Assembly (NCBI GenBank): GCA_027623995.1 | Contig: JAQBUF010000015.1 | Span: 1 to 57,448, forward strand | Source of the DNA: Nitrospirota bacterium | GTDB lineage: Bacteria > Nitrospirota > Nitrospiria > Nitrospirales > UBA8639 | DNA: 57,448 bases | Direction: 5' to 3' | Translations under genes and position numbers: made by a program | Notes under the pieces: model-generated | Database searches by the model: none | What the model was told of the DNA's origin: nothing | What the model saw: only the letters and a program-made list of their open reading frames with translations | Shown here: positions 43,928-57,271 of the stretch, one piece after another | Position numbering within the stretch: the first letter of the stretch is position 1 | Layout: each line of letters begins with the position of its first letter

Positions 43928-45307
43928 ATGCTGCCACCGCAGACTCAACACATTTCCCTGATTGCCGATCCGATTCATCAATACATTCAGTTTACCGTGC
44001 CAGGTGAGAGCACACCGTCTCACGAAACCACGGAAAAAGATCTCATTGATTCCCCATGGCTTCAGCGCCTTCGTTATATCTATCAATTGCAAAGTGCTCG
44101 ATGGGTCTATCCCTCGGCTGAACATAGTCGCTTTCAACATTCACTGGGGGCAATGCATTTGGCTGGACGCTATGCCAAGCATATTTATCCCTCATTGGCT
44201 CAGACCGTTCGGGACGTTCCCTCACTTCCTTACATCGAAGAACTCCTGAGAGTCACGGCACTCTTGCACGATATCGGACATGGACCCTTTTGCCATTTTT
44301 TTGATCACCATTTTCTCAAACACTTCAACTTAACTCATGAACAGGTGGGACAATCGATCATTCGTGATGAACTTGGCACGATTATTCAGAAATTGAAACG
44401 CAGTCCCACAGGGGCCTTTGGCCCACATGAGGTGCTGGACCCTACGCACATCGCGTTTCTCATTTTGAAAGATCCTCACAAAAAAAGTCAGCGCTATCCT
44501 CGATGGCTTCAACTCCTGCAACCACTAATTGGGGGACTCTTCACCGCGGACAATTTTGATTATGTGTTGCGGGACTCCTATATGTGTGGGATTGCCGTCG
44601 GGCCTGTGGACATTACGCGATTGATTCACTACACCTTCATCACACCAAAAGGATTAACACTCCACAAAAACGGGCTCTCGGCTCTTCAAATGTTTCTCAA
44701 TGCTCGGTTCTACCTGTACTCCAATGTCTATTTCCATCGAACAACACGGGCCATTGACCTTCACCTCTTGGAAATTTTTCGCGAAACCATGGAATGCATT
44801 TTTCCACATAATCCTCTTGATCACCTGCAGGACTATCTGGGACTGACGGATTGGTCATTACTGGAAACCGTGCGAACCTGGGCTCAATCAACGAATCGGA
44901 AACAACGCCGGCTGGCAGGAGAATGGAAGCAGATTTTAGGACGCCAGGTAAAATGGAAAACTGCGTACAGCCAGTTACTCACCACCACAGATTACCAACG
45001 CCAAGGGCCTGCAGAAACACCAGCAAAACTTGAGGCCCGCATTCGCCGCCAATTGCCGCGAGAATTCAAACACCTCATCTTTCGGGTCGATATTGCCAGC
45101 AAGGATACTCGGCCCTTCAACGTCCTCAATATGGGACAATTTCAATTTTACATCTATGACCCTGCCACCCAATCCGTGGAAAAAGAACGACTCAAAGAAT
45201 TATTTGAATTTCTTCCATCACGAATTGTCCAGCTGAGGATTTTTGCAGAAGATCATCAGGCCGATGAGGTCTTAGCCCATGCCACGGAAATGGCCCTCAA
45301 AGGCTAA
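43928..45307 (+). CDS. HD-domain phosphohydrolase (SAMHD1/dGTPase-like)
   Basis: 459-residue HD-superfamily metal-dependent phosphohydrolase. The metal-binding set is visible as RFQHSLGAMHLA (first His), LLHDIGHGPFCHFFDHH (HD motif) and LFTADNFDYVLRDSYMCG (final Asp). The pattern is that of bacterial relatives of SAMHD1 and Dgt, so hydrolysis of dNTPs or other nucleotides is likely. The substrate is not known. It ends 24 bp from the convergent RGP-family gene. Confidence 0.85.
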   Translation: MLPPQTQHISLIADPIHQYIQFTVPGESTPSHETTEKDLIDSPWLQRLRYIYQLQSARWVYPSAEHSRFQHSLGAMHLAGRYAKHIYPSLAQTVRDVPSLPYIEELLRVTALLHDIGHGPFCHFFDHHFLKHFNLTHEQVGQSIIRDELGTIIQKLKRSPTGAFGPHEVLDPTHIAFLILKDPHKKSQRYPRWLQLLQPLIGGLFTADNFDYVLRDSYMCGIAVGPVDITRLIHYTFITPKGLTLHKNGLSALQMFLNARFYLYSNVYFHRTTRAIDLHLLEIFRETMECIFPHNPLDHLQDYLGLTDWSLLETVRTWAQSTNRKQRRLAGEWKQILGRQVKWKTAYSQLLTTTDYQRQGPAETPAKLEARIRRQLPREFKHLIFRVDIASKDTRPFNVLNMGQFQFYIYDPATQSVEKERLKELFEFLPSRIVQLRIFAEDHQADEVLAHATEMALKG

Positions 45308-45331
45308 GTCCAAAATAATCTAAGGAGTCGG

Positions 45332-46408
45332 CTAGGTGATGAGCGCTGACTTCGGAGCAGGGGATAGACAGGCATCGATGCCAACGTGCGATGGCAACTC
45401 GGAGGGAACAACATCCCGATCAAAAAGGGTTGTCCAAAGAAGCATAGCCTCTCGCAACGCAGGCCAATACTGGCCTTCCAAAGTTAAGGATTTGGCAATC
45501 TCTCGGTAACACTCAAGAATGGTTGTGCCTTCGAGACGTACCTGATCAATCACCTGCCAAAACTCTTCATTCACTTCTAGGCCAGGAGCTTCTTTCCGAA
45601 GATTCGCCCACACGTTTGATGCTCGCTTATGCGTGACAATCGGGTCACCACTTTTGATCGCATAACCAAGATGATCGCATATTTTCTTCACGATAATCCC
45701 ACTCCAAATATCACCGAAGCGATCGTACTGATAGCCCTGCCCCATAAGCAAAAAGTACAGCGCCGGAATGAGTTCTGGTCGAAACGCGATATTCATTCCA
45801 CACATAGGAAAATATTGGCCCACAGGAATCGTTTGATTCACCGCGGTAAATTGGCGAGGGAATCGAGCTTGGACTAATTGGGTCGGCGCATCAAAGTCAG
45901 GCACATGATCCCAGAGCCCATGATTCAGCAGACACGTCCATTCTCGATGCCGCTGGAAATAGGGAATCCCTCGAGTGGGAACACCTTCACCCGTCTCTTG
46001 CCACGCGTTACTTAAAGCTGGCTGAGTGAGGGCCTGCCAATGCCTGTGAATAAATTGCGCGCCATCGCCACTGGGATAACAATCATCATCCAGGGTGATG
46101 ACCATATCTGGATGGTCTTGATAGGCTTTCAAAAATCCATAGGACCGAATGCAATCGGTTCGACGAGGAATGATCCAGCTGTCTGAACCAAAATCACGAT
46201 CAATATCTTCCCAGGAAAAATGAGTGACATGAGGATAGGCGGCAAGGTCAAACGTTCGAGTCGGATTATCTTCGACAATAATCACATGGGCCGACGAAAA
46301 GGTCTTAGCCCAGGAGGCCAAAAATTCACGAATCGAGTGTTCCCGAATCGTCGGAACCACAATTGAACATGTCATCTGAGGAGTGCCATCCTCCTTGTCC
46401 ATACTCAT
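45332..46408 (-). CDS. RGP/UDP-arabinopyranose mutase-family protein
   Basis: 358-residue GT-A-type protein with striking resemblance to plant reversibly glycosylated polypeptides/UDP-L-arabinopyranose mutases. Segments that match the family as I recall it: IVVPTIREHSIREFL (16-30), ITLDDDCYPSGDG (104-116, the DDD at 107-109), LNHGLWDHVPDFDAPTQLVQ (161-180), FPMCGMNIAFRPELIPALYF (cited: FPMCGMNIAF) and KKICDHLGYAIKSGDPIVTH. Arg153 or Arg155 may be the self-glycosylated or catalytic Arg of plant UAM. In plants the enzymes interconvert UDP-Ara pyranose and furanose forms. Here it lies in a flagellin/glycan cluster and overlaps the CgeB-like gene by 4 bp. Confidence 0.85.
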   Translation of the reverse strand: MSMDKEDGTPQMTCSIVVPTIREHSIREFLASWAKTFSSAHVIIVEDNPTRTFDLAAYPHVTHFSWEDIDRDFGSDSWIIPRRTDCIRSYGFLKAYQDHPDMVITLDDDCYPSGDGAQFIHRHWQALTQPALSNAWQETGEGVPTRGIPYFQRHREWTCLLNHGLWDHVPDFDAPTQLVQARFPRQFTAVNQTIPVGQYFPMCGMNIAFRPELIPALYFLLMGQGYQYDRFGDIWSGIIVKKICDHLGYAIKSGDPIVTHKRASNVWANLRKEAPGLEVNEEFWQVIDQVRLEGTTILECYREIAKSLTLEGQYWPALREAMLLWTTLFDRDVVPSELPSHVGIDACLSPAPKSALIT

Positions 46409-47544
46409 AAGGATGGAGTCGCCAATCCAGAGGCAGCCGTGGTCATGACCTCTTCTTTTTTATCGTTGACACCGGCCCCTTGTAATAAGGCAAACAGTTC
46501 TTGCCCACGTTTGCGCCACGAATGGCTCTCACTCACAATATTATGACCAGCCTCTCCCACAACGCCCCAGTGTGAGCCATTGAGAATTAAACGAGCCAAA
46601 TCCACGGCCTCAGGAACGGAAGAAAAATACGCAAGGTGAGTACCATGCTGAAAATGTTTAGACAAATAGGGCGTGGGCATGGTCAAGGGCACCGCACCAC
46701 TCCCCATGGCGGTGAGGATCCGATCATGAGCTCCCTGGGTAAACCCACATGAAGGGCAAAGGACAATCTTGGCTCGACTCATTAACGAGGACACCTTGCT
46801 GTAGGGAATCTCTCCAATCCAACGATGATTCGGACTCATGGCTATCTCCCCCCAACCCTCCCCAGCGACGACCATGGAAAATTCAGAAAAAGCACTCACC
46901 AAATCCATGCGATGGGTCCCCCGAATAACTCGGTCAGCCACCGTCAATACAGACATAGAATCCGACACCGACATATTATTCCCAGATTGGCGTAACGCCG
47001 AAAGAAACAGTTGCAACAAATCTTGCTGTGGGAGTCCTAAGGCTTCCTGAATGAAATCTCTCGTAAAATCTTGTTGCTCCAGCGGAAGATCTTCAAGCAA
47101 CTGCCAGGCCTGATTCAGATTTGGGGCCGTCCCTGTTAATAGGACATCAATGTCTCGCTCCCTCCAAGGCCGGAACCTGTGGATATCACCCCCATGAGGG
47201 AAAAAGGTCCCGTTTCGATTTAAGAGAGAAAGCACTTTGAGATGGGCGGGATCTACGACCGCATAATTCACAGCTAAGGGCCCTAGCCAAATCCAACCAG
47301 CATGGTGAACTGGCGAATCAAGTAAATACGTCCAATATTGCGGCACATTGTCAAAAATTTCTTTTTGGATAGGAAGAGAAAGAGAGTTGAGGAGCACGAA
47401 AAAATCTAGTCCCCTGGTATCCATGACTTTCCGACAGATGACGGATGCTCCACCTGCCTCCCGAATCCCTACCATTAATTGTTTTTGAATATGTGGAATC
47501 ACGTGATAGCTCGACTGAGTCAGGGCGGAGAACCCAACTTTCAT
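46405..47544 (-). CDS. CgeB-like glycosyltransferase
   Basis: 379-residue GT-B-type protein. The C-terminal domain shows IPYSKVSSLMSRAKIVLCPS and GAHDRILTAMGSGAVPLTMP, followed by a region like Glyco_trans_1_2 of CgeB proteins. The N-terminal half contains FPHGGDIHRFRPWRERDIDV, probably the linker to the donor domain. CgeB-like enzymes often lie with flagellin or spore glycans. In this operon, next to PseI and the RGP-family gene, transfer of a nonulosonate or arabinose-type sugar to flagellin is a reasonable guess. Confidence 0.8.
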   Translation of the reverse strand: MKVGFSALTQSSYHVIPHIQKQLMVGIREAGGASVICRKVMDTRGLDFFVLLNSLSLPIQKEIFDNVPQYWTYLLDSPVHHAGWIWLGPLAVNYAVVDPAHLKVLSLLNRNGTFFPHGGDIHRFRPWRERDIDVLLTGTAPNLNQAWQLLEDLPLEQQDFTRDFIQEALGLPQQDLLQLFLSALRQSGNNMSVSDSMSVLTVADRVIRGTHRMDLVSAFSEFSMVVAGEGWGEIAMSPNHRWIGEIPYSKVSSLMSRAKIVLCPSCGFTQGAHDRILTAMGSGAVPLTMPTPYLSKHFQHGTHLAYFSSVPEAVDLARLILNGSHWGVVGEAGHNIVSESHSWRKRGQELFALLQGAGVNDKKEEVMTTAASGLATPSL

Positions 47545-47660
47545 TTGATACCTTCTTTTTTAAAATAATGACTAAATTTGGACGGTCATATAAAAAATTA
47601 ATGCTAGCTATTTAATGGCAAGTCTCATGCCAGAGATTTAAGTGAATGTACCCGACAAAC

Positions 47661-48803
47661 CTACTTGGACCGACCGAGACCAACGTGCCGTATATCCTTC
47701 ACTAATTCGAACTGGACTCGCAGCGTAAATGGTCCTGGGGGAACCTTCTTTGAAGCGGGAGACTCACAATATTGGAAGCATTCTCCCGGCAATTTCTGCA
47801 ATACATGATGCACACTTTGGGAAAATTTTTCCTCGTTATCTACTTGAACAATTTGGGTATGAGAGACCGTCCCTCCCCTCCCTGAGACCAACGCGACCCC
47901 TCGGCGGCGGTTGCCAGGAAGATACCCGGACGTAGGAATTGATTCTGCCACAGGAGGGAACCACCATTGAAGCAACCAGGTTTGCATGATCATCGCTAAT
48001 TGACTGCGAATCAAACGAGAAGCATCCACCTCATTTTGATCACCGACGACCTCAACAGAGATGGTGCGAGACTCTTCAGGGACCGGAACAATCACGGGAG
48101 CAATTTCTTCTGGGAGCCAACAATGCCCGGCTTGATATTCTTCACCCTGTTGATCTAAATCCAGATGAAATTCCACCATTGACGCCCCCCATCGATGGAC
48201 AGCTCGAAGTACCACAGCTGGATTCACGGTGTGGTCTGACCATCCAACGGCACATCGGCAACCTTCGCGAAGGGTTTCAAGACTTGAAAGGTTGCACTCA
48301 CTCGGGGCCGCAGGATATCCAGAGACACAGTGTAATACGGTCAGATCTTGGCATCCGGTATCTCGCACGATTCTTGCGGCATGAGTCACCTCTTCCAGGG
48401 TCGCCATTCCCGTGGAGAGCACCACAGGTTTTTGAGTTCGTGCGCAAGAGATTAACAAGTCATCCCACAACAATTCGTAGGAAGCTACTTTGTAAAAATC
48501 GACATAGGGTTCAAGCTCTTGAACGGCCTTTAAGTAAAAGGGCGTGCAGGAAAATTGAATGCCTTGTTGCTGACAACGTGCCGCCAGGTGAGGTAAAAAG
48601 GATACCGGCAGCTCCCATTGTTCTCGACGTAACAACGCCTCATTCTGTTCCAACGCGGCAGGGGCAAAGAGCTCACGAATCTTAAACAATTGAAATTTTA
48701 CCGCAGCACACCCGATTGCTGCACTTCGGTCGATAAACGCAAAGCACCGATCCAAATCTTGGTGATGATTACTGGAGACTTCTGCAACGAATCGAACGGC
48801 CAT
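47661..48803 (-). CDS. pseI: NeuB/PseI-family nonulosonate synthase, atypical C-terminus
   Basis: 380-residue enzyme of the NeuB TIM-barrel family that joins a hexose derivative to phosphoenolpyruvate. FVAEVSSNHHQDLDRCFAFI (N-terminus), AVKFQLFKIRELF, SYELLWDDLLISCARTQKPV and VVLSTGMATLEEVTHAARIV are typical. The metal-site region GWSDHTVNP is also present. The C-terminal 130 residues do not show the usual SAF antifreeze-like domain (no GxGI/S-T-R-SL-type start). Pseudaminic acid is inferred from PseB/PseC next door; a legionaminic- or sialic-type product cannot be ruled out. Confidence 0.82.
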   Translation of the reverse strand: MAVRFVAEVSSNHHQDLDRCFAFIDRSAAIGCAAVKFQLFKIRELFAPAALEQNEALLRREQWELPVSFLPHLAARCQQQGIQFSCTPFYLKAVQELEPYVDFYKVASYELLWDDLLISCARTQKPVVLSTGMATLEEVTHAARIVRDTGCQDLTVLHCVSGYPAAPSECNLSSLETLREGCRCAVGWSDHTVNPAVVLRAVHRWGASMVEFHLDLDQQGEEYQAGHCWLPEEIAPVIVPVPEESRTISVEVVGDQNEVDASRLIRSQLAMIMQTWLLQWWFPPVAESIPTSGYLPGNRRRGVALVSGRGGTVSHTQIVQVDNEEKFSQSVHHVLQKLPGECFQYCESPASKKVPPGPFTLRVQFELVKDIRHVGLGRSK

Positions 48804-48842
48804 GGCACCTCTGGTTTTGGTAAAACTGATTCATTTTGGTTC

Positions 48843-50006
48843 TCATGACACCGCCGTCGAGATCAAATCATGACTGGCAGCAACATCTTTGAGCGTAGCA
48901 ATCACTTCGTCCACTTCTTCATTCTTCAGCGCTGGGTAGATGGGCAAAGACAGAATGTCTTCGTAAGCAGCCTCCGCATGGGGGCAGAGTCCTGGTTCCG
49001 TGCCAAATTGCTCTCGATAAAACGGTTGCAGGTGTACGGGAATGTAATGCACCTGCACACCGACCCCTTGTTCTCGCAACAATGAGAACAAGGTGGCGCG
49101 GTCCACACCAAGCTTTTCTTGATCAACACGAATCACGTACAAGTGATAGGCATGAGACACACCAGAACCCACCGGAACTGGGTGAATCCCGGGAATCGTG
49201 TTCCACGCCTGATCATATCGTGAAGCAATGGCCTGCCGACGCGTAATCCATCCAGGAAGTTTCCGTAACTGGCTCAGCCCCAACGCGCATTGAAAATCCG
49301 TCAACCGATAATTCATGCCCAAATCGGTCATTTGGTATTCCCACGTTTGCTTCGCCAATCGCTGTTGGTGATCCGTGGTAATGCCATGATTGCGAAACAT
49401 TCGCATCCGTTTCGCATACTCGGCCTGCATGGTGACCACCATTCCACCTTCCCCCGTGGTGAGGGCCTTCACTGGATGAAAACTCAAGATGGTGAGGTCG
49501 GCCAACGAACCCACTGGTCGACCACGAAGCGAAGCTCCTAAGGCATGGCAGGCATCAGCAATAAGAACGAGCCCAAAAGCATCGGCAATGCCACGAAGCG
49601 CATCGTAGTCGCATGGTTGTCCGGCATAATCCACGGCGAGGATGGCCTTGGTTCGAGAGGTCACTTTCTCCTCAACGTCATGGGGATCGAGTAACAGGGT
49701 TTGGGGATCGACATCCGCAAACACCGGCACGCCTCCGCACATCACGACCGCATTGGCCGTGGCCACGAACGTGAGCGGCGGGAGAATGACTTCATCGCCT
49801 GCTTGCAATCCAATGGCATGCATGGCGCAATGCAGCGCGGCGGTGCCATTGGACACCGCCACGGCATCTTGGGCATGAACCATTCGAGCCATGGCCTGCT
49901 CAAATTCGAGGATTTTGGTTCCCGTGGTTAACCAATCGGAATGCAGGACATCGACCACTGCGGCAATATCATCGTCATCAATACTATGTCGTCCGTAAGG
50001 AATCAT
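48843..50006 (-). CDS. pseC: UDP-4-amino-4,6-dideoxy-N-acetyl-L-altrosamine transaminase
   Basis: PLP-dependent aminotransferase of 387 residues in the second step of pseudaminic acid synthesis. The PLP lysine is in SFHPVKALTTGEGG (about K183). ADACHALGASLRGRPVG precedes it. The N-terminus IPYGRHSIDDDDIAAVVDVL is the usual PseC start. The 5-bp gap to pseB shows they form one operon. DegT-like paralogue at 5394-6689 is more distant. Confidence 0.92.
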   Translation of the reverse strand: MIPYGRHSIDDDDIAAVVDVLHSDWLTTGTKILEFEQAMARMVHAQDAVAVSNGTAALHCAMHAIGLQAGDEVILPPLTFVATANAVVMCGGVPVFADVDPQTLLLDPHDVEEKVTSRTKAILAVDYAGQPCDYDALRGIADAFGLVLIADACHALGASLRGRPVGSLADLTILSFHPVKALTTGEGGMVVTMQAEYAKRMRMFRNHGITTDHQQRLAKQTWEYQMTDLGMNYRLTDFQCALGLSQLRKLPGWITRRQAIASRYDQAWNTIPGIHPVPVGSGVSHAYHLYVIRVDQEKLGVDRATLFSLLREQGVGVQVHYIPVHLQPFYREQFGTEPGLCPHAEAAYEDILSLPIYPALKNEEVDEVIATLKDVAASHDLISTAVS

Positions 50007-50011
50007 TGGCC

Positions 50012-51088
50012 TCAGACTTTAGACAGCACCACAAGCCCGCGAGACTTTTGGGGCTCTAGAGTTCCAGCACTAAATCCATTTTGCACTAAAAGGTTTTTCA
50101 GTTCAGGAACAGACAACCAATGAGGGTTATTCTCACTGCTATATCGAAAGCCCTCGGGAAGAGGTCGGCGTTTTCCCGCAGCCCCCTCGCGGGCTCGCCC
50201 CTTCCAAGACTGGTATTCAGGAAGCACCGTAAAGAGATCGTCATACTCCATCGCATGTCGACTCTCATCTTCAGTGAGGAGCACTTCGTGGAGCTTTTCC
50301 CCAGGACGAAGGCCGATATATTTGATTGCACATTCAGGCGCCATGGCCTTGACAATATCCAAGATCCCAATGCTGGGAATCTTTGGCACAAAAATTTCTC
50401 CCCCTCGCGTCAAGGTAAGGCACCGCAACACAAACCAGGCCGCTTGATCCAAGGTGAGCCAAAACCGGGTCATGCGCTTATCCGTCACCGTCACCTCGCC
50501 TTGGTGTCGTTGAGTCTCGAAGAGCGGCACCACACTGCCTCGGCTCCCCAACACGTTCCCATAACGCACACAGCTCATCCGTGTCGGCCCCGAGCCCACA
50601 TAACTATTCCCTTGAACAAAAATCCGTTCGGCACAGAGCTTCGTGGCGCCATACAGATTAATTGGATTCACCGCCTTATCTGTACTCAGTGCCATAATTT
50701 GTGCGACCTGTTGATCAATGGATGCATCAATAAGATTTTGAGCCCCCACCACGTTGGTCCTTACGGCCTCAAACGGGTTATACTCGCAGGTTGGCACTTG
50801 CTTCATGGCTGCGGCATGAATAATCAGATCAACTCCCTGCACCGCTCGTTGAACTCGATTGGCATCTCTCACATCACCAATTAAATACCGAATTCGATCG
50901 TCGGTGAATTGGCGAGACATATCGTGCTGCTTCAACTCGTCACGACTGAATATTCTCAGGGCTTTAAATGAGAAATGCTCGACCAAGATCTTCGTCAATC
51001 GCTTCCCAAAGGATCCCGTCCCCCCGGTAAGTAAAATGGTCTTACCCTGAAGATGTCGTTGGATGAGACTCGATAAATTTTTGGCCAT
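50012..51088 (-). CDS. pseB: UDP-N-acetylglucosamine 4,6-dehydratase (inverting)
   Basis: 358-residue SDR enzyme, first step of pseudaminic acid synthesis. TILLTGGTGSFGKRLTKILV holds the NAD(P)-binding motif. The catalytic segment is MALSTDKAVNPINLYGATK, with Tyr and Lys in YGATK. HAAAMKQVPTCEYNPFEAVR is another PseB/FlaA1 signature. It is soluble and lacks the membrane part found in PglF/WbpM. AAGGAG is 11 nt upstream of ATG 51088. Confidence 0.93.
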   Translation of the reverse strand: MAKNLSSLIQRHLQGKTILLTGGTGSFGKRLTKILVEHFSFKALRIFSRDELKQHDMSRQFTDDRIRYLIGDVRDANRVQRAVQGVDLIIHAAAMKQVPTCEYNPFEAVRTNVVGAQNLIDASIDQQVAQIMALSTDKAVNPINLYGATKLCAERIFVQGNSYVGSGPTRMSCVRYGNVLGSRGSVVPLFETQRHQGEVTVTDKRMTRFWLTLDQAAWFVLRCLTLTRGGEIFVPKIPSIGILDIVKAMAPECAIKYIGLRPGEKLHEVLLTEDESRHAMEYDDLFTVLPEYQSWKGRAREGAAGKRRPLPEGFRYSSENNPHWLSVPELKNLLVQNGFSAGTLEPQKSRGLVVLSKV

Positions 51089-51202
51089 GACAGAAAAACT
51101 CCTTCCTGAGGCTATAGACCTTCCTAGTCACTCCTTCCAATATTCATGCCATTATTAGATTAGTGGTAGATTGATGATTTTTGTCGGTTTTGACTGGGGA
51201 TG

Positions 51203-51420: not shown

Positions 51421-51678
51421 TTAAAAAGAATTCGACGTATCAGAAGAAGATTCTGGCAGGATATGTTTGGTCAAACTTGGAACATTCGCTGGATCAGCAG
51501 CCATGGCCGCGAGATTTTCTTGGCGAACGGCTTGATACAATTCTTCCCGTAACACACGCATGCTGTTCGGGCATTCGATTCCAAGTCTCACCTGATTACC
51601 TTTCAACTGGACGAGTACAACTCGAATGTTTTCACCGAGTCGGATTCCTTCGCCTTCCTTGCGAGTTAATATAAGCAT
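51421..51678 (-). CDS. csrA: Carbon storage regulator CsrA
   Basis: 85-residue RNA-binding protein. The N-terminus MLILTRKEGEGIRLGENIRV is the CsrA beta-strand 1-2 region. VRLGIECPNSMRVLREELYQ follows, including the conserved Arg in the RNA-contact VLREE segment. The tail is about 20 residues longer than in E. coli, which is common outside gammaproteobacteria. A strong AAGGAGGG sits 5 nt before ATG 51678 and contains GGA, the CsrA core site, which could allow autorepression. The upstream FliW gene is its antagonist. Confidence 0.96.
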   Translation of the reverse strand: MLILTRKEGEGIRLGENIRVVLVQLKGNQVRLGIECPNSMRVLREELYQAVRQENLAAMAADPANVPSLTKHILPESSSDTSNSF

Positions 51679-51739
51679 GCTGCCCTCCTTGGCAGACCGA
51701 GATCAGTTGTAAATAAAGGTCTGTATGAGACTCATCGAG

Positions 51740-52204
51740 TTATGTATTCACCGCAGTTTGTACCGTTAGTTCTACCTCATGCTCCACATTGGAATTCTCT
51801 GAAATCAAGGCAAATCGAATAGGGTACGATTCATTAAGAATGATTTGTTTCCCTTGATTCCGCGTGGCATTAATGATCAAAGGCCCCTGTAGGTTAGCCG
51901 TGGCTTTGTTTGGTTGATCTGGGGGAATGGTCACAATGGATAACACCACCACATCATCTCCATCTTGAAACTCAATTTCATGCAGTGCATCGTCTTGAAT
52001 TTCTACGTGATAGTCAGGTTTGACGACCCCAGGCTCCACCACCACAAACGCAATGCTCCCATCATCGAGAGACTGTAACCATTGATAGCCTTCTATGGAC
52101 AGCTGGGCTTGCAACGCATCCCGCACATCACTTTCATCCTCCACAATAAGAATATGTGCCGATGATTGGGTCATGTCAGGTTGTCTTCCTTCCCTGGACG
52201 CCAT
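51740..52204 (-). CDS. fliW: FliW-like protein with response-regulator-like N-terminus
   Basis: 154-residue protein. From residue 41 it is FliW-like: QWLQSLDDGSIAFVVVEPGV, VVVLSIVTIPPDQPNKATAN and NLQGPLIINATRNQGKQIIL. The normal FliW N-terminus (F-P-x-G-L-x-G-F) is missing. Residues 17-40 instead read HILIVEDESDVRDALQAQLS, then IEGY, matching the first strand and helix of a CheY-like receiver. The start ATG 52204 has AAGGAG at the right spacing. FliW binds CsrA and flagellin, linking secretion to translation. It is 61 bp before csrA. Whether the chimera still binds CsrA is unknown. Confidence 0.8.
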   Translation of the reverse strand: MASREGRQPDMTQSSAHILIVEDESDVRDALQAQLSIEGYQWLQSLDDGSIAFVVVEPGVVKPDYHVEIQDDALHEIEFQDGDDVVVLSIVTIPPDQPNKATANLQGPLIINATRNQGKQIILNESYPIRFALISENSNVEHEVELTVQTAVNT

Positions 52205-52417
52205 CAGTCGCTCCTTTTTTCAAAATTGGGAACGCATGTCGTGTGTCTATTCATCACGTTCACCGAATGTTGACCATGTTTCATTCCAATACAGGCGATT
52301 ACACTCTCAAGTATTAGACAAAACTTCCGAACAATAAAAGATACGCGATGCACTTTTCCACTGAATAGTAAATCTCACGTCAATCATCACACGAGAAGAC
52401 AGTAAGGTTTATGAGTC

Positions 52418-52633
52418 ATGTATCCTGAAAAAAATTCAATGCCCCTGTTTATTTTGTTTGATAGCAAAACAGGATATTTATATGGCCACTTGATGGCCTC
52501 AGGCCCAGACGATCCATTTTTAAATGATATGCTCGAGTGGTGGGGTAGCCATTGCTCTGCAATCCCAATTGGATTGGACTATCCTGGATTGACCGGAACT
52601 GCTCAAGCACAAAATACCTTATCGTCTAATTAA
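52418..52633 (+). CDS. Hypothetical 71-residue protein
   Basis: Small plus-strand frame between lptD and fliW, with its own region free of overlap. The product contains FILFDSKTGYLYGHLMASGP and NDMLEWWGSHCSAIPIGLDY, and looks protein-like. I recognise no family. AAGG lies about 10 nt upstream of the ATG. It could be a genuine small gene or a chance frame. Confidence 0.35.
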   Translation: MYPEKNSMPLFILFDSKTGYLYGHLMASGPDDPFLNDMLEWWGSHCSAIPIGLDYPGLTGTAQAQNTLSSN

Positions 52634-52729
52634 CCGTTTCCCGCCTCCTTCACACATCGTTTTTGCTTTTCAAAATTCAACATGAATTGCCCCTAGTTAC
52701 GCCGAAGGCACTTTCAGTATTTTCGTCCC

Positions 52730-55027
52730 TTAATTTGGGGACCAGGGCACTCCTGGCTCATTCTCAAGTAATGGGCCCAAGATCGATTGGAGAAGAGCCG
52801 TCCCATTACCCTGTGTGGCACCGATCCCACGGAGGGTCACGACAAAATTAAACTGGTTTCGTTCCGGCAATCCACCGCCTTCACCCAACCTGATGTAATA
52901 CAACCCTAAAGACCAACACCGGCATGGGTTTTGATACAGCCCGACCACATCCCATTCCGGCGTTTGCCCTTTGGCGAAATCATGATACACCTTTGAACCG
53001 ATGGTCCACCCAAATGGAGTGCGGACTGCCCCTCCCAATGTCAGAAAGTTAATTTCTGTTTGGGGAGCCAAGACTTCGTTAAAGGAGAGAGGATTCCAGA
53101 TGTCTCCTCGTCGTGGTACGATCCCGGCACGGGTATGCCGATGTCCAACCTGTATATACGCTGTACGATTGGACTGCAAGACAATATCGGTATTGAATTG
53201 ACTGAATTCACCATCTCCCGGATCAAAAAACGCATCGAATGAGACTGAGGCGTTACTCAAAAACGGCGGCAATTGGTCCGTTGGGAGGCCCACGATAGCA
53301 CGTCCCCAGAGATCTGAAAAGATATTCGCTTGCCCTGGGGTCGATCCAAGATGATAACTCTGGGCAAAAAAGAGATCCAATAACGTGGTGGATTTCCCGC
53401 CAGAACGTTCATCTTTGAGTCTTGTGCTCAAGGAATACGTCAGTAAGTTCTTCTTTGCGAGATTATCGACGGCATCGATCTGCGCCAAATCAGCCTGTTT
53501 CGTGTTTGGAACATATTCGTAAAAAAGACTGGGTTCGATCGTATGACGAATTCTCCGGCCTTGGCTTATGGGAAACCGGCGAGACAAACTTGACATGGCC
53601 TCGAAACCTAACCAAAACGTTCCTCGATCCCGAGCGTCATCCTGAACCGACGATCGGCCGTGGGAATACAACACCTCGCGCACCTTCATTTGGGGACGAA
53701 GCCCCACAGTATTCCAAAGGTGTAATCCTTGCGCCGAAATTCCCGGCATCAGATCGAGTCGACTGACCTGAAACCCCTGCTCCCGCCAGAAATGGACAAA
53801 ATTGGAATTCATGTCCACAACAAATGTTCCATTCGCGAACACCGGACTCGTAAACCGATGGCCCAGCTCAGGTAACCGTTGAAAGGTCGTACGTCCGCCT
53901 GAATTCAACGGTTGTAAATATTGGACTTTCAAGTAGGCGCTGCCACCTGGCAAACGCTGCGTCACATTCAGAACCGATTCTTGACTCGGCAGGGAACGAA
54001 ACACACCGGAACTTGTGAGATCCTGCAAAAGAGATCGGTCCGTGGCATAGTTCACTTGCATCTGAAGCGACAGGTCTTCATTGAATTGCTGAACATGCGC
54101 CCCTGTGATTTGGGCACGAGCTTTATCCACATCCGTATCGTAGAGCGAGCTCATTAACCAATTCCCTTTGGACCGGCGATTGAGAATATACCGATAGGCC
54201 AGATCTCCCCCAAAACCACGATCTGTTAAAATTTGAGGCGTTACCAACAAGTCTTGGCTTGGAGAGATTGCCCAATAAAAATCCTGTCGATATTGAAAGC
54301 CTAAAACATTATCAAACCCCGCAGTGGGAAGAAGAAAACCTGTTTTACGCGCACCTGGCATGGGGTATTGAAGAACTGGCAAGGGCAGGAGACGCTGATT
54401 TCTGATCTGAAACCAAACATTCTTAGCAAAAATACTATCCCCCTGCTCCACATCGATATCTGCAAAGGCAAAACTCCAATCAGGGATTTGCCCATCCTCG
54501 GCATCGCAATTCGTAAACGTGCCATCTTTCGCACGAAAATGTGTTTCGGAAAACCGCTGCAACAAACGGCCACGAACCCAGGTATTTGTTTTCGATAACA
54601 GTATTTTTCCATTGGTAATGATGCCGGCCTCAGTATAGACATTGATTTCCATGTCCTCGGCCCATACTTCCATGACCTGATCATTCAAATGCACGTGACC
54701 CTTTGCATTGAGGGATCCCGAGAGTTTGTGGATGACGGCTTCATCCGCCGTTAATCGCAGAGGACCTTGTGTCACCACCACTGATCCAATGGCACGAAAA
54801 ACTTCTGTGACACGATCAAATTCAACTTTTTGAGCGGTGACATCTAAAGGGGGACGTGAAGATGATCCAGAAGATTCGGTCACTGGAGGGGAAGGGTTAG
54901 CTAACACTTGAGAGGCCGGAGACCCACAAAAAATTATAGCAAGAAGACACACGACCCTCACCGTCCAAACACCAATTGAACAGTGGGACAAAAACATGTG
55001 TTGTCGGTTATCCAACAATGGGAGCAT
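52730..55027 (-). CDS. lptD: LPS-assembly protein LptD
   Basis: 765-residue outer-membrane protein that inserts LPS into the outer leaflet. The N-terminal signal is VRVVCLLAIIFCGSPASQVLA. An OstA-like N-terminal domain follows: PLDVTAQKVEFDRVTEVFRA and GPLRLTADEAVIHKLSG. The C-terminal barrel starts near residue 210 and includes LPVLQYPMPGARKTGFLLPT, a conserved LptD segment. The start is uncertain: ATG 55027 overlaps folC by 20 bp, while ATG 54997 gives a more compact signal peptide. Its substrate is made by the genes of 16887-36125. Confidence 0.92.
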   Translation of the reverse strand: MLPLLDNRQHMFLSHCSIGVWTVRVVCLLAIIFCGSPASQVLANPSPPVTESSGSSSRPPLDVTAQKVEFDRVTEVFRAIGSVVVTQGPLRLTADEAVIHKLSGSLNAKGHVHLNDQVMEVWAEDMEINVYTEAGIITNGKILLSKTNTWVRGRLLQRFSETHFRAKDGTFTNCDAEDGQIPDWSFAFADIDVEQGDSIFAKNVWFQIRNQRLLPLPVLQYPMPGARKTGFLLPTAGFDNVLGFQYRQDFYWAISPSQDLLVTPQILTDRGFGGDLAYRYILNRRSKGNWLMSSLYDTDVDKARAQITGAHVQQFNEDLSLQMQVNYATDRSLLQDLTSSGVFRSLPSQESVLNVTQRLPGGSAYLKVQYLQPLNSGGRTTFQRLPELGHRFTSPVFANGTFVVDMNSNFVHFWREQGFQVSRLDLMPGISAQGLHLWNTVGLRPQMKVREVLYSHGRSSVQDDARDRGTFWLGFEAMSSLSRRFPISQGRRIRHTIEPSLFYEYVPNTKQADLAQIDAVDNLAKKNLLTYSLSTRLKDERSGGKSTTLLDLFFAQSYHLGSTPGQANIFSDLWGRAIVGLPTDQLPPFLSNASVSFDAFFDPGDGEFSQFNTDIVLQSNRTAYIQVGHRHTRAGIVPRRGDIWNPLSFNEVLAPQTEINFLTLGGAVRTPFGWTIGSKVYHDFAKGQTPEWDVVGLYQNPCRCWSLGLYYIRLGEGGGLPERNQFNFVVTLRGIGATQGNGTALLQSILGPLLENEPGVPWSPN

Positions 55028-56309
55028 ACCTTGATCCAGCCAACAGGCTCTTCACCGCCCCAACGAGGAATAACGACCCCGTCACGCAAATAAGGTCCTG
55101 TGGATCGGAAAGTTGAGTAGCCAACGCTACGGCATCAGATGGAGTGGCTGCCCCATGGACACACAACCCCTCCTGGTTCACTTTGTGTTGCAACATGTGA
55201 ACCGTCGCAGATCGAGCATGATCAATTTGTGTACAGATCACGATATGGGCTAAGGGAAGAAGGACAGCTAAACAGGCATCGATATTTTTGTCTTGCATCA
55301 TTGCGAGGACAAGAATCAATTTCCGCTCAAACACCTCGCCAATCATGGTTTCCAAATAATGAGCTAATATTATTGCCGCTGCCGGATTATGCGCACCATC
55401 ACCCACCATCAGCGGCTTGGTCATGAGAGTCTCCAAACGCCCCTCCCATTTCACGGAACGTAAGCCTTGAATAATAGCTTCCTCTGGAATGGCTCGACCT
55501 GGCATCACACTGCTCTCAATAAGAGCCAGTGCACAGGCCGCATTGAGGAATTGGTGAGAGCCTTTCAACGCGCAAGGGAGTTTGGAATATTCATGCGTGC
55601 CCCCTTTGTACTCAAACATTCCATCCTCATGAATCTCGATTGTGAAATCTTGGCCATATTGATAAAGGGACGCACCTTCCTCATTGGCCTTCGCCTGAAT
55701 GACTGTTTGCGCAGTCGACTCCATAGGCCCCATAACAACCGGAACACCTGACTTAATGATTCCTGCCTTTTCATAGGCGATGGCCTCAAGGGTATGACCA
55801 AGATAGGCCTCATGATCAAATGAAACGTTGGTCACCAACACACCAAGTGGGTCACACACATTGGTGGCATCAAACCTCCCTCCCATTCCTACTTCGATGA
55901 CAGCCACCTCGACCTTTTCCTCGGCGAAATATTTAAAGGCCATGGCAGTGGCAGTTTCAAAAAATGTAGGGCAGCGGGTGGAATGGGCATCGCCTCGAAA
56001 TCGATCGACAAGATCAACGACTCGAGATTCTGAAATCTGTTCCCCCTGCACTTGAATCCGCTCACGAAAATCAACCAAATGGGGAGAGGTGTAGAGCCCC
56101 ACCCGAATATTGGCGGCCCGAAGGATCGAGGCCGTCATGGCCGCTGCGGAACCCTTTCCGTTGGTACCACCGATGTGCAAAACCTGAAATTGACGCTCGG
56201 GATGATGGCATTGAGCCAATAAGGTCCGAATCGTCTCAAGCCCAAGCTTGATGCCATGCTTCTGAAGCCCGTACAGATAGGTGAGGCATGCTTGGTACGA
56301 CTCTGCCAT
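55008..56309 (-). CDS. folC: Folylpolyglutamate/dihydrofolate synthase FolC
   Basis: 433-residue Mur-ligase-like enzyme adding glutamate to folates. The ATP-binding site is HIGGTNGKGSAAAMTASILR (near residue 47). LYTSPHLVDFRERIQVQGEQ and VAVIEVGMGGRFDATNVCDP follow, both typical of FolC. ERKLILVLAMMQDKNIDACL is in the C-terminal domain. It overlaps the lptD start by 20 bp and follows accD by about 115 bp, a frequent accD-folC pairing. Confidence 0.94.
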   Translation of the reverse strand: MAESYQACLTYLYGLQKHGIKLGLETIRTLLAQCHHPERQFQVLHIGGTNGKGSAAAMTASILRAANIRVGLYTSPHLVDFRERIQVQGEQISESRVVDLVDRFRGDAHSTRCPTFFETATAMAFKYFAEEKVEVAVIEVGMGGRFDATNVCDPLGVLVTNVSFDHEAYLGHTLEAIAYEKAGIIKSGVPVVMGPMESTAQTVIQAKANEEGASLYQYGQDFTIEIHEDGMFEYKGGTHEYSKLPCALKGSHQFLNAACALALIESSVMPGRAIPEEAIIQGLRSVKWEGRLETLMTKPLMVGDGAHNPAAAIILAHYLETMIGEVFERKLILVLAMMQDKNIDACLAVLLPLAHIVICTQIDHARSATVHMLQHKVNQEGLCVHGAATPSDAVALATQLSDPQDLICVTGSLFLVGAVKSLLAGSRYAPIVG

Positions 56310-56425
56310 ATCTTAATGCTTTAGCCTTTGACCCAACATAGGACCACCGAGGCACGTTTTAACGCATCGCTATTGTTTGGGGACCTACGTGAGCATCACT
56401 ACTGGGTCACGCGATCAGAAGACGA

Positions 56426-57271
56426 CTAGTGCTTACTCGCGAGATGCTTCAAGAGTATATGGATCGTGTCTCGCAAATGAGGCCGAGACACAATCGAATC
56501 AATCATGCCATGTTCCAAGAGAAATTCCGCTCGCTGAAATCCTTCAGGCAATCGCTGCTTGATGGTCTGTTCAATAACCCGAGGGCCAGCAAACCCAATC
56601 AACGCCTTTGGTTCCGCAATGATCACATCACCCAACATGGCAATACTCGCCGTCACGCCACCAAACGTGGGATCGGTCAACAAGGAAATAAACGGGACCC
56701 GAGCTTCATGAAGACGAGCGGCAGCCGAAGCCGTCTTGGCCATCTGCATCAAAGACAAAGTACCTTCTTGCATCCGAGCGCCCCCCGAAGTCACCACCAA
56801 CAAAAAAGGATGCTGCGCCTTTAAAGCACGATCAACGGCTCGACAAATCTTTTCGCCCACGACCGACCCCATGCTTCCACCCATAAACCGAAAGTCAAAG
56901 AGGCCCACGACCAGAGGCTTCCCGAGTACGAGACCTTCCCCAATAATCATGCCGTCATTTCTACCGGTCTTCTCTTGATAGACCTTCAAACGATCAACAT
57001 AGGGCTGCGTATCCACAAAGCCTAACGGGTCCGCAGGCGCGAGGTCAGTCTCCCATTCTTGAAAGCTATCGGGATCAAGGAGAAGTTCAATACGTTCGCT
57101 GACGGATAGCGGAAAATGATATTCGCACTTTGGGCACAGTTTGAAATTCTTATCGACTTCTTTTTGATAGACAATGCCTCGACAAAAGGGACATTTGACC
57201 CACATGCCTTCGACAATATTGAGCTTCCCTTTGTCGGAAGCTTTGGCAGGAGCCTTCTTAAACCATCCCAT
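56426..57271 (-). CDS. accD: Acetyl-CoA carboxylase carboxyltransferase subunit beta
   Basis: 281-residue subunit that, with AccA, makes malonyl-CoA for fatty acid synthesis. The N-terminal zinc ribbon is WVKCPFCRGIVYQKEV and then NFKLCPKCEYHFPLS, with four Cys. The crotonase-like core shows FDFRFMGGSMGSVVGEKICR and VVTSGGARMQEGTLSLMQMA, both conserved in AccD. It starts just downstream of a 120-bp inverted-repeat element. Confidence 0.95.
   Translation of the reverse strand: MGWFKKAPAKASDKGKLNIVEGMWVKCPFCRGIVYQKEVDKNFKLCPKCEYHFPLSVSERIELLLDPDSFQEWETDLAPADPLGFVDTQPYVDRLKVYQEKTGRNDGMIIGEGLVLGKPLVVGLFDFRFMGGSMGSVVGEKICRAVDRALKAQHPFLLVVTSGGARMQEGTLSLMQMAKTASAAARLHEARVPFISLLTDPTFGGVTASIAMLGDVIIAEPKALIGFAGPRVIEQTIKQRLPEGFQRAEFLLEHGMIDSIVSRPHLRDTIHILLKHLASKH

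Follow-up and report, generated by a model that had tools for sequence, protein, structure and literature searches.

This locus raises the question of whether a bacterial gene resembling the RGPs, or UDP-arabinopyranose mutases, of plants belongs to a nonulosonate cluster with pseI, pseC and pseB and acts in flagellin glycosylation, as the original prediction had suggested. The window, that is the whole stretch of 57,448 nucleotides that was analysed (contig JAQBUF010000015.1 of the Nitrospirota assembly GCA_027623995.1, here G000), was compared with genomes of the same bacterial family, chiefly G307 (same genus) and G303 (another genus). The features around the gene are as follows.

43928..45307, plus strand: HD-domain phosphohydrolase, 86% identical in G307 and 70% in G303, where it also adjoins RGP; the synteny anchor.
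45332..46408, minus strand: RGP, a GT75 NDP-pyranose mutase homologue of 358 aa, assigned from PF03214 (167 bits), the MtdL residue map and the fold.
46405..47544, minus strand: CgeB-like glycosyltransferase (PF13524, Pfam 54.8 bits); the G307 orthologue, 67-68% identical, lies directly before RGP.
47661..48803, minus strand: chimera of a NeuB-type synthase (aa 1 to ~236) and the last ~143 aa of a CsgG-like lipoprotein, from alignments and a DNA-block break.
48843..50006, minus strand: PseC, UDP-4-amino-4,6-dideoxy-N-acetyl-beta-L-altrosamine transaminase (TIGR03588, 462.9 bits, cut-off 423.5).
50012..51088, minus strand: PseB, UDP-GlcNAc 4,6-dehydratase (inverting) (TIGR03589, 467.9 bits, cut-off 407.8).
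51421..51678, minus strand: CsrA-like protein with 83% identity to a stretch of 84 aa next to FliW in G307, the name being based on sequence and location.
51740..52204, minus strand: chimera of a response-regulator N-terminus and FliW minus its N-terminal ~47 aa; the FliW Pfam match (106 bits) runs from aa 38 only.

The RGP reading frame was located on the minus strand with the start and end first given for it, the plus strand over 45332-46408 being rich in stops, and its predicted overlap with the CgeB-like frame was found to be 4 bp. The three family segments named beforehand, LDDDCYP, LNHGLWDHVPDFDAPTQ and FPMCGMNIAF, are each present in the translation. The Pfam search that had been proposed gave PF03214 at 167.1 bits against a cut-off of 23.8 (E 8e-49, residues 14-328, profile positions 7-337 of 342), and a PDB sequence search returned OsUAM2 of rice (8cid, 95 bits) and MtdL (7xpr, 94 bits). 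No model in NCBIfam or PHROGs matched RGP or the CgeB-like protein, and promoter and terminator scans yielded no more sites than shuffled sequences. The AlphaFold model of RGP (pLDDT 90.6, pTM 0.88) has a GT-A Rossmann domain with the GT75 core and C-terminal helices. In Foldseek it matched MtdL (E 6e-25, TM about 0.70) and OsUAM2 (E 4e-22, TM 0.73), with generic GT-A folds next at 1e-6; with the Pfam score, this rules out a purely generic GT2 similarity. By sequence and predicted structure, RGP is a GT75 NDP-pyranose mutase homologue; the family call is sound, and the interesting context is that in the sister genome G307.

Active-site residues were assigned from the residue map of MtdL (PMC9937993) in an alignment that took in all homologues found. 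In MtdL, D109, R159, D195, R257 and D260 are essential by mutation, and D111 and H287 are Mn ligands (PMC9937993). The DDD of RGP, Asp107-109, aligns with MtdL 109-111, with Asp109 at the position of D111, and His260 aligns with His287; Arg146 (nucleophile), Asp171, Arg230 and Asp233 (base) are the counterparts of R159, D195, R257 and D260, and Arg262 is also kept. A loss of the DDD or of the catalytic Arg, which had been named as a point to check, was thus not observed. The catalytic Arg had been placed wrongly at Arg153 or Arg155: Arg146 is the residue aligned with MtdL R159 and OsUAM1 R158, and Arg153, seven residues further on, falls opposite the second of the two Args in RGYPFSLR of 8cid. 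All mutation-defined mutase residues of MtdL are kept in RGP except Gln229, which RGP, like most relatives not on the MtdL branch, replaces by Met. Most of the active-site set is conserved across nearly all relatives, with exceptions such as an Asp-to-Ala change in L013 and a small number of DYD variants; the rice UAM2 chain (8cid), which is of the inactive type (PMC9937993), deviates at D111, R257 and H287 in MtdL numbering.

In published mutants, base and sugar choice is governed by positions 86-87, where active plant enzymes have Asp-Ser and where either swap left the enzyme under test inactive or unable to bind (PMC9937993). RGP has Thr84-Asp85 and MtdL Ser-Asp at these positions; the plant UDP-sugar type is not present in RGP, which shares with MtdL the GDP-compatible pattern of Asp at 87 and a non-Asp residue at 86. 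By its aligned residues the switch of RGP is MtdL-like at Thr84-Asp85 and plant-like at Pro19 (MtdL position 13) and Gly204 (MtdL position 228). A GDP-type nucleotide would be somewhat favoured by positions 86-87 only, and we make no confident call; the mixed residues offer a test of the published nucleotide-selectivity rule. MtdL can use GDP-L-fucose, and GDP-mannose dehydratase (GMD) is needed to make it; GDP-fucose was set aside as the substrate in G000 and G307, GMD being below cut-off in both.

The label 'plant-type' had to be given up: RGP has its nearest known relatives in bacteria and phages, GT75 occurs also in archaea and actinobacteria, and the switch is MtdL-like. MtdL itself (Marinactinospora, GT75, a GDP-L-Gal/GDP-L-Fuc mutase; 7xpr, 7yua) shares with RGP the fold, the DDD, the catalytic Arg, the Asp base and the Mn-binding His. 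It differs in being ~26% identical, in having Thr at 13 and Ser-Gln at 228-229 where RGP has Pro and Gly-Met, and in belonging to a separate clade with an antibiotic rather than a flagellar context; G000 has no GMD over the cut-off. The plant UAM/RGP proteins (OsUAM1/3, AtRGP1-3 and OsUAM2) have in common with RGP the PF03214 domain, the fold, an RG-P-R stretch with the glycosylated Arg, and PxxGxN; active plant enzymes differ at 86-87, a comparison for which plant residues were taken from PMC9937993, the aligned plant chain being 8cid. The FAD-dependent UDP-galactopyranose mutase (UGM) also carries out a pyranose-to-furanose reaction but is an unrelated flavoenzyme, whereas GT75 uses a metal and an Arg.

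In G307 the minus-strand gene order is fliC, flaG, fliD, fliS, a small gene, PilZ, CsgG-like lipoprotein, CgeB and RGP; RGP is the last gene of this flagellin run, and the HD gene follows in the opposite orientation. NeuB, PseC, PseB, CsrA and FliW of G307 lie about 29 kb upstream of the C-terminal part of the lipoprotein gene, and among the genes in between are those for a Maf-type transferase (adjacent to fliC), a PseG-like protein, a cytidylyltransferase, an aminotransferase, a sulfotransferase and methyltransferases. G303 has the layout of G307, with RGP reduced to its C-terminal half and CgeB to scraps with stops (L019:4767-6189). Flagellin and FlhA are still present in G303 despite this decay, and RGP and CgeB are therefore dispensable for flagella. 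The CgeB-like gene was found in three of the 49 family genomes (G000, G307 and G303), the same three that carry this type of RGP; the fourth PF03214 match in the family, in G227, is a distant protein of the MtdL branch. The proposed pairing of RGP with the CgeB-like transferase is supported by this co-occurrence and by the orthologous pair in G307, which together make at most two independent cases because two of the three genomes share a genus. The CsgG-like lipoprotein of the flagellin run (579 aa, L126:11241-12980), encoded after PilZ and before CgeB, is conserved in G303.

No match to flagellin (Flagellin_N), FliD or FlhA was found in the whole genome of G000, which is 99.7% complete; all three are present in G307. 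Flagellin glycosylation is therefore excluded as a present role in the window organism. Ancestrally, a flagellar-glycan role is plausible, with the flagellar target suggested by gene order in two genomes; that the flagellin-run layout is seen in two relatives, G307 and G303, counts against its firmness. In the window organism, either another acceptor would be used or the RGP-CgeB pair would be idle. We regard it as quite possible, while leaning slightly the other way, that RGP and CgeB have been non-functional leftovers since the flagellar deletions and are bound to decay, a reading compatible with the explanation favoured below. It is consistent with the missing flagellar markers, with the truncation of NeuB and FliW in chimeras and with the visible decay of the pair in G303. 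Against it stand the intact RGP and CgeB reading frames, the complete active site and a dN/dS of 0.135 for RGP relative to G307. In three-way relative-rate tests, which are blind to very recent loss of use, neither RGP, PseB and PseC nor the NeuB remnant showed an excess of amino-acid changes along the branch leading to the window, and accelerated evolution of the remnants was dropped as an explanation. These selection results fit recent deletions and continued use alike and do not separate them.

The explanation that we favour, and consider probable though well short of certain, combines a GT75 mutase, an ancestral supply of furanose from the flagellin run to CgeB, and two deletions that left remnants. 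From the computed family, fold, active-site residues, synteny and chimeric junctions, and from the absence of the three flagellar markers, we infer the reaction, its furanose product, the transfer by CgeB and the flagellar target as follows. RGP would bind an NDP-pyranose together with Mn2+, for which Asp109 and His260 would serve as ligands, and Arg146 would attack the anomeric carbon (C1) with Asp233 as the base; the ring would open, and the sugar's own O4 would reclose it as a furanose on the nucleotide, giving an NDP-furanose. This scheme of Arg attack and O4 reclosure was called possible, not established, by its authors (PMC9937993). The ancestral RGP, as the last gene of the flagellin run, would have supplied the NDP-furanose to the adjacent CgeB-like transferase, its natural candidate user, which would have added the furanose to the flagellar glycan. 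Measured against G307, two deletions, of ~29 kb and ~77 kb, would have taken away the genes for flagellin and the hook cap along with the greater part of the flagellar cluster, and RGP, CgeB, PseB and PseC would have stayed intact beside a broken NeuB.

RGP might instead be a glycosyltransferase and not a mutase, either priming on its own self-glycosylated Arg or transferring a pyranose to another acceptor, which we consider unlikely. GT75 members do glycosylate their own conserved Arg, AtRGP2 with UDP-Glc had transferase activity only and no mutase activity, and some plant GT75 members are inactive (PMC9937993); the fold of RGP is GT-A. The retention of the MtdL mutase residues other than Gln229 argues for a mutase, as does the separate transferase gene that overlaps RGP. 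Both bacterial GT75 enzymes characterised as of the 2023 structure paper are mutases, from antibiotic pathways (PMC9937993).

For the deletions, four collinear DNA blocks were traced between the window and G307: 45017-47981 with 1242600-1245560, 48090-51152 with 1274500-1277566, 51446-52090 with 1277822-1278465, and 52082-56713 with 1355283-1359900. Stretches of about 28.9 kb and 76.8 kb are absent from the window relative to G307. At the first junction, near 48090-48098, NeuB residues 1-236 are joined in frame to lipoprotein residues 436-578, and the two parts match G307 NeuB 1-241 (C1:1274.5k) and lipoprotein 436-578 (C1:1245.2k). At the second, 52082-52090, alignment with intact FliW and the G307 regulator placed a response-regulator N-terminus in frame with FliW, and the shared 9-position near-repeat GGnTATCAA lies at this junction (microhomology). 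The simple reading is a deletion in the G000 line, because the gene forms of G307 recur in G303 and, as far as the FliW-NeuB part goes, in G306. On the same simple reading, RGP would have come to adjoin the Pse genes by deletion, as joined remnants and not as a designed nonulosonate-RGP cluster; in G307 it is ~29 kb from pseB, pseC and neuB, and the cluster first proposed is not supported in that form. The window would then record the loss of a flagellum through two large deletions with an in-frame fusion at each, and the misleading 'nonulosonate cluster' would be their result. That the junctions are artefacts of metagenome-bin assembly, with the flagellar genes merely unbinned, is unlikely: G000 is a 110-contig assembly, but the two junctions are separate and both in frame, one of them at the near-repeat, their flanks are collinear on both sides, and flagellin, FliD and FlhA are nowhere in a genome of such completeness.

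As to the pseudaminate genes themselves, the prediction stood for pseB and pseC, which exceed their NCBIfam cut-offs, and failed for 'pseI', which is the truncated NeuB-lipoprotein chimera (154.9 bits, below the cut-off of 340); the closeness of all three to RGP is secondary. The scar removes the last ~55 aa of NeuB with the WRADPxDGxRP segment, replaced by the lipoprotein tail. A second NeuB was not found in G000, and PseF, PseG and PseH were not found among the window genes scanned from RGP to AccD; a cytidylyltransferase and the PseG-like gene fall within the G307 stretch absent from the window. Loss of a SAF domain from NeuB by deletion was considered and dropped, the intact proteins of G307, G306 and G303 being of 290-294 aa without SAF. 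NeuB of this lineage thus appears naturally short (L148:544-1425, L149:6048-6917, L150:5808-6725), and that of G307 reaches only about half of the PseI/NeuB cut-offs. That RGP acts on a pseudaminic acid intermediate to give the furanose form of a nonulosonate precursor is highly improbable: both PseB and PseC are intact and lie nearby, but this closeness was apparently created by deletion, and the PseC product is an unlikely substrate because its C4 bears an amine, and the ring contraction as proposed would use a free 4-OH.

The nearest homologue of RGP is that of G307, about 75% identical; further homologues, at roughly 37-61%, were found in Chloroflexota, Acidobacteriota, Planctomycetota and Riflebacteria MAGs and on a Planctomyces plasmid. 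Phage homologues were found in a 595-kb phage (LR756511), in most of 37 IMG/VR loci and in BFVD (A0A6J5N5Z7), several viral GT75 loci having terminase, portal, head or phage DNA polymerase genes nearby. GT75 in phage had earlier been mentioned in passing (PMC12016548). In a quick tree, the window RGP and that of G307 formed a pair (99% SH-aLRT) inside a mixed bacteria-phage group, with the archaeal and MtdL branches apart from it; the deep forks were weak and the plant row was a long branch. Most phage members fall in the RGP clade at about 37-55% identity with the same catalytic set; they differ from RGP in that many have the plant-like Asp-Ser switch and in lying beside phage head genes and GT2 transferases. 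Gene neighbourhoods of L009-L024 and the phage loci hold mostly other transferases, and the survey of these neighbourhoods found no shared NDP-sugar maker. Outside the bacterial family of the window, the relatives lie in general glycosyltransferase clusters or phage genomes, none adjoining flagellar genes, and no paper tying the GT75 family to flagella was found in the literature searched.

We suggest, as a tentative proposal that may well prove wrong, that the RGP clade is a flagellum-linked GT75 branch, in which the flagellin run closes with a flavin-free, metal-dependent pyranose-furanose mutase whose product is passed to a CgeB-type transferase inherited together with it, giving flagella that carry furanose, and that mutases of this type are widely distributed among tailed and huge phages and have moved between virus and host. 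At the G307 locus, the part of furanose donors in flagellar glycosylation would be open to test; phage GT75 members offer such mutases in greater number, most of them still unstudied.

GT75 is frequent in tailed-phage contigs, including the 595-kb phage (L005, L006, L089-L123, L008), and both the Thr/Ser-Asp and the Asp-Ser switch are present among them. Near the L005 copy in phage lies a gene resembling GDP-L-fucose synthase; it was set aside as substrate evidence because L005 has UDP-like switch residues. A Maf/MptE-like protein is encoded on C32 of G000 (L170:9807-12182), 36% identical to the Maf of the G307 island, and has thus been retained where flagellin is missing; G307 has its orthologue at the same place. 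At L141 (G307 C1:1065 kb), a GHMP kinase resembling a heptose kinase, named from sequence, lies beside a GMD-like dehydratase, and this pair of neighbours suggests a GDP-heptose route in G307.
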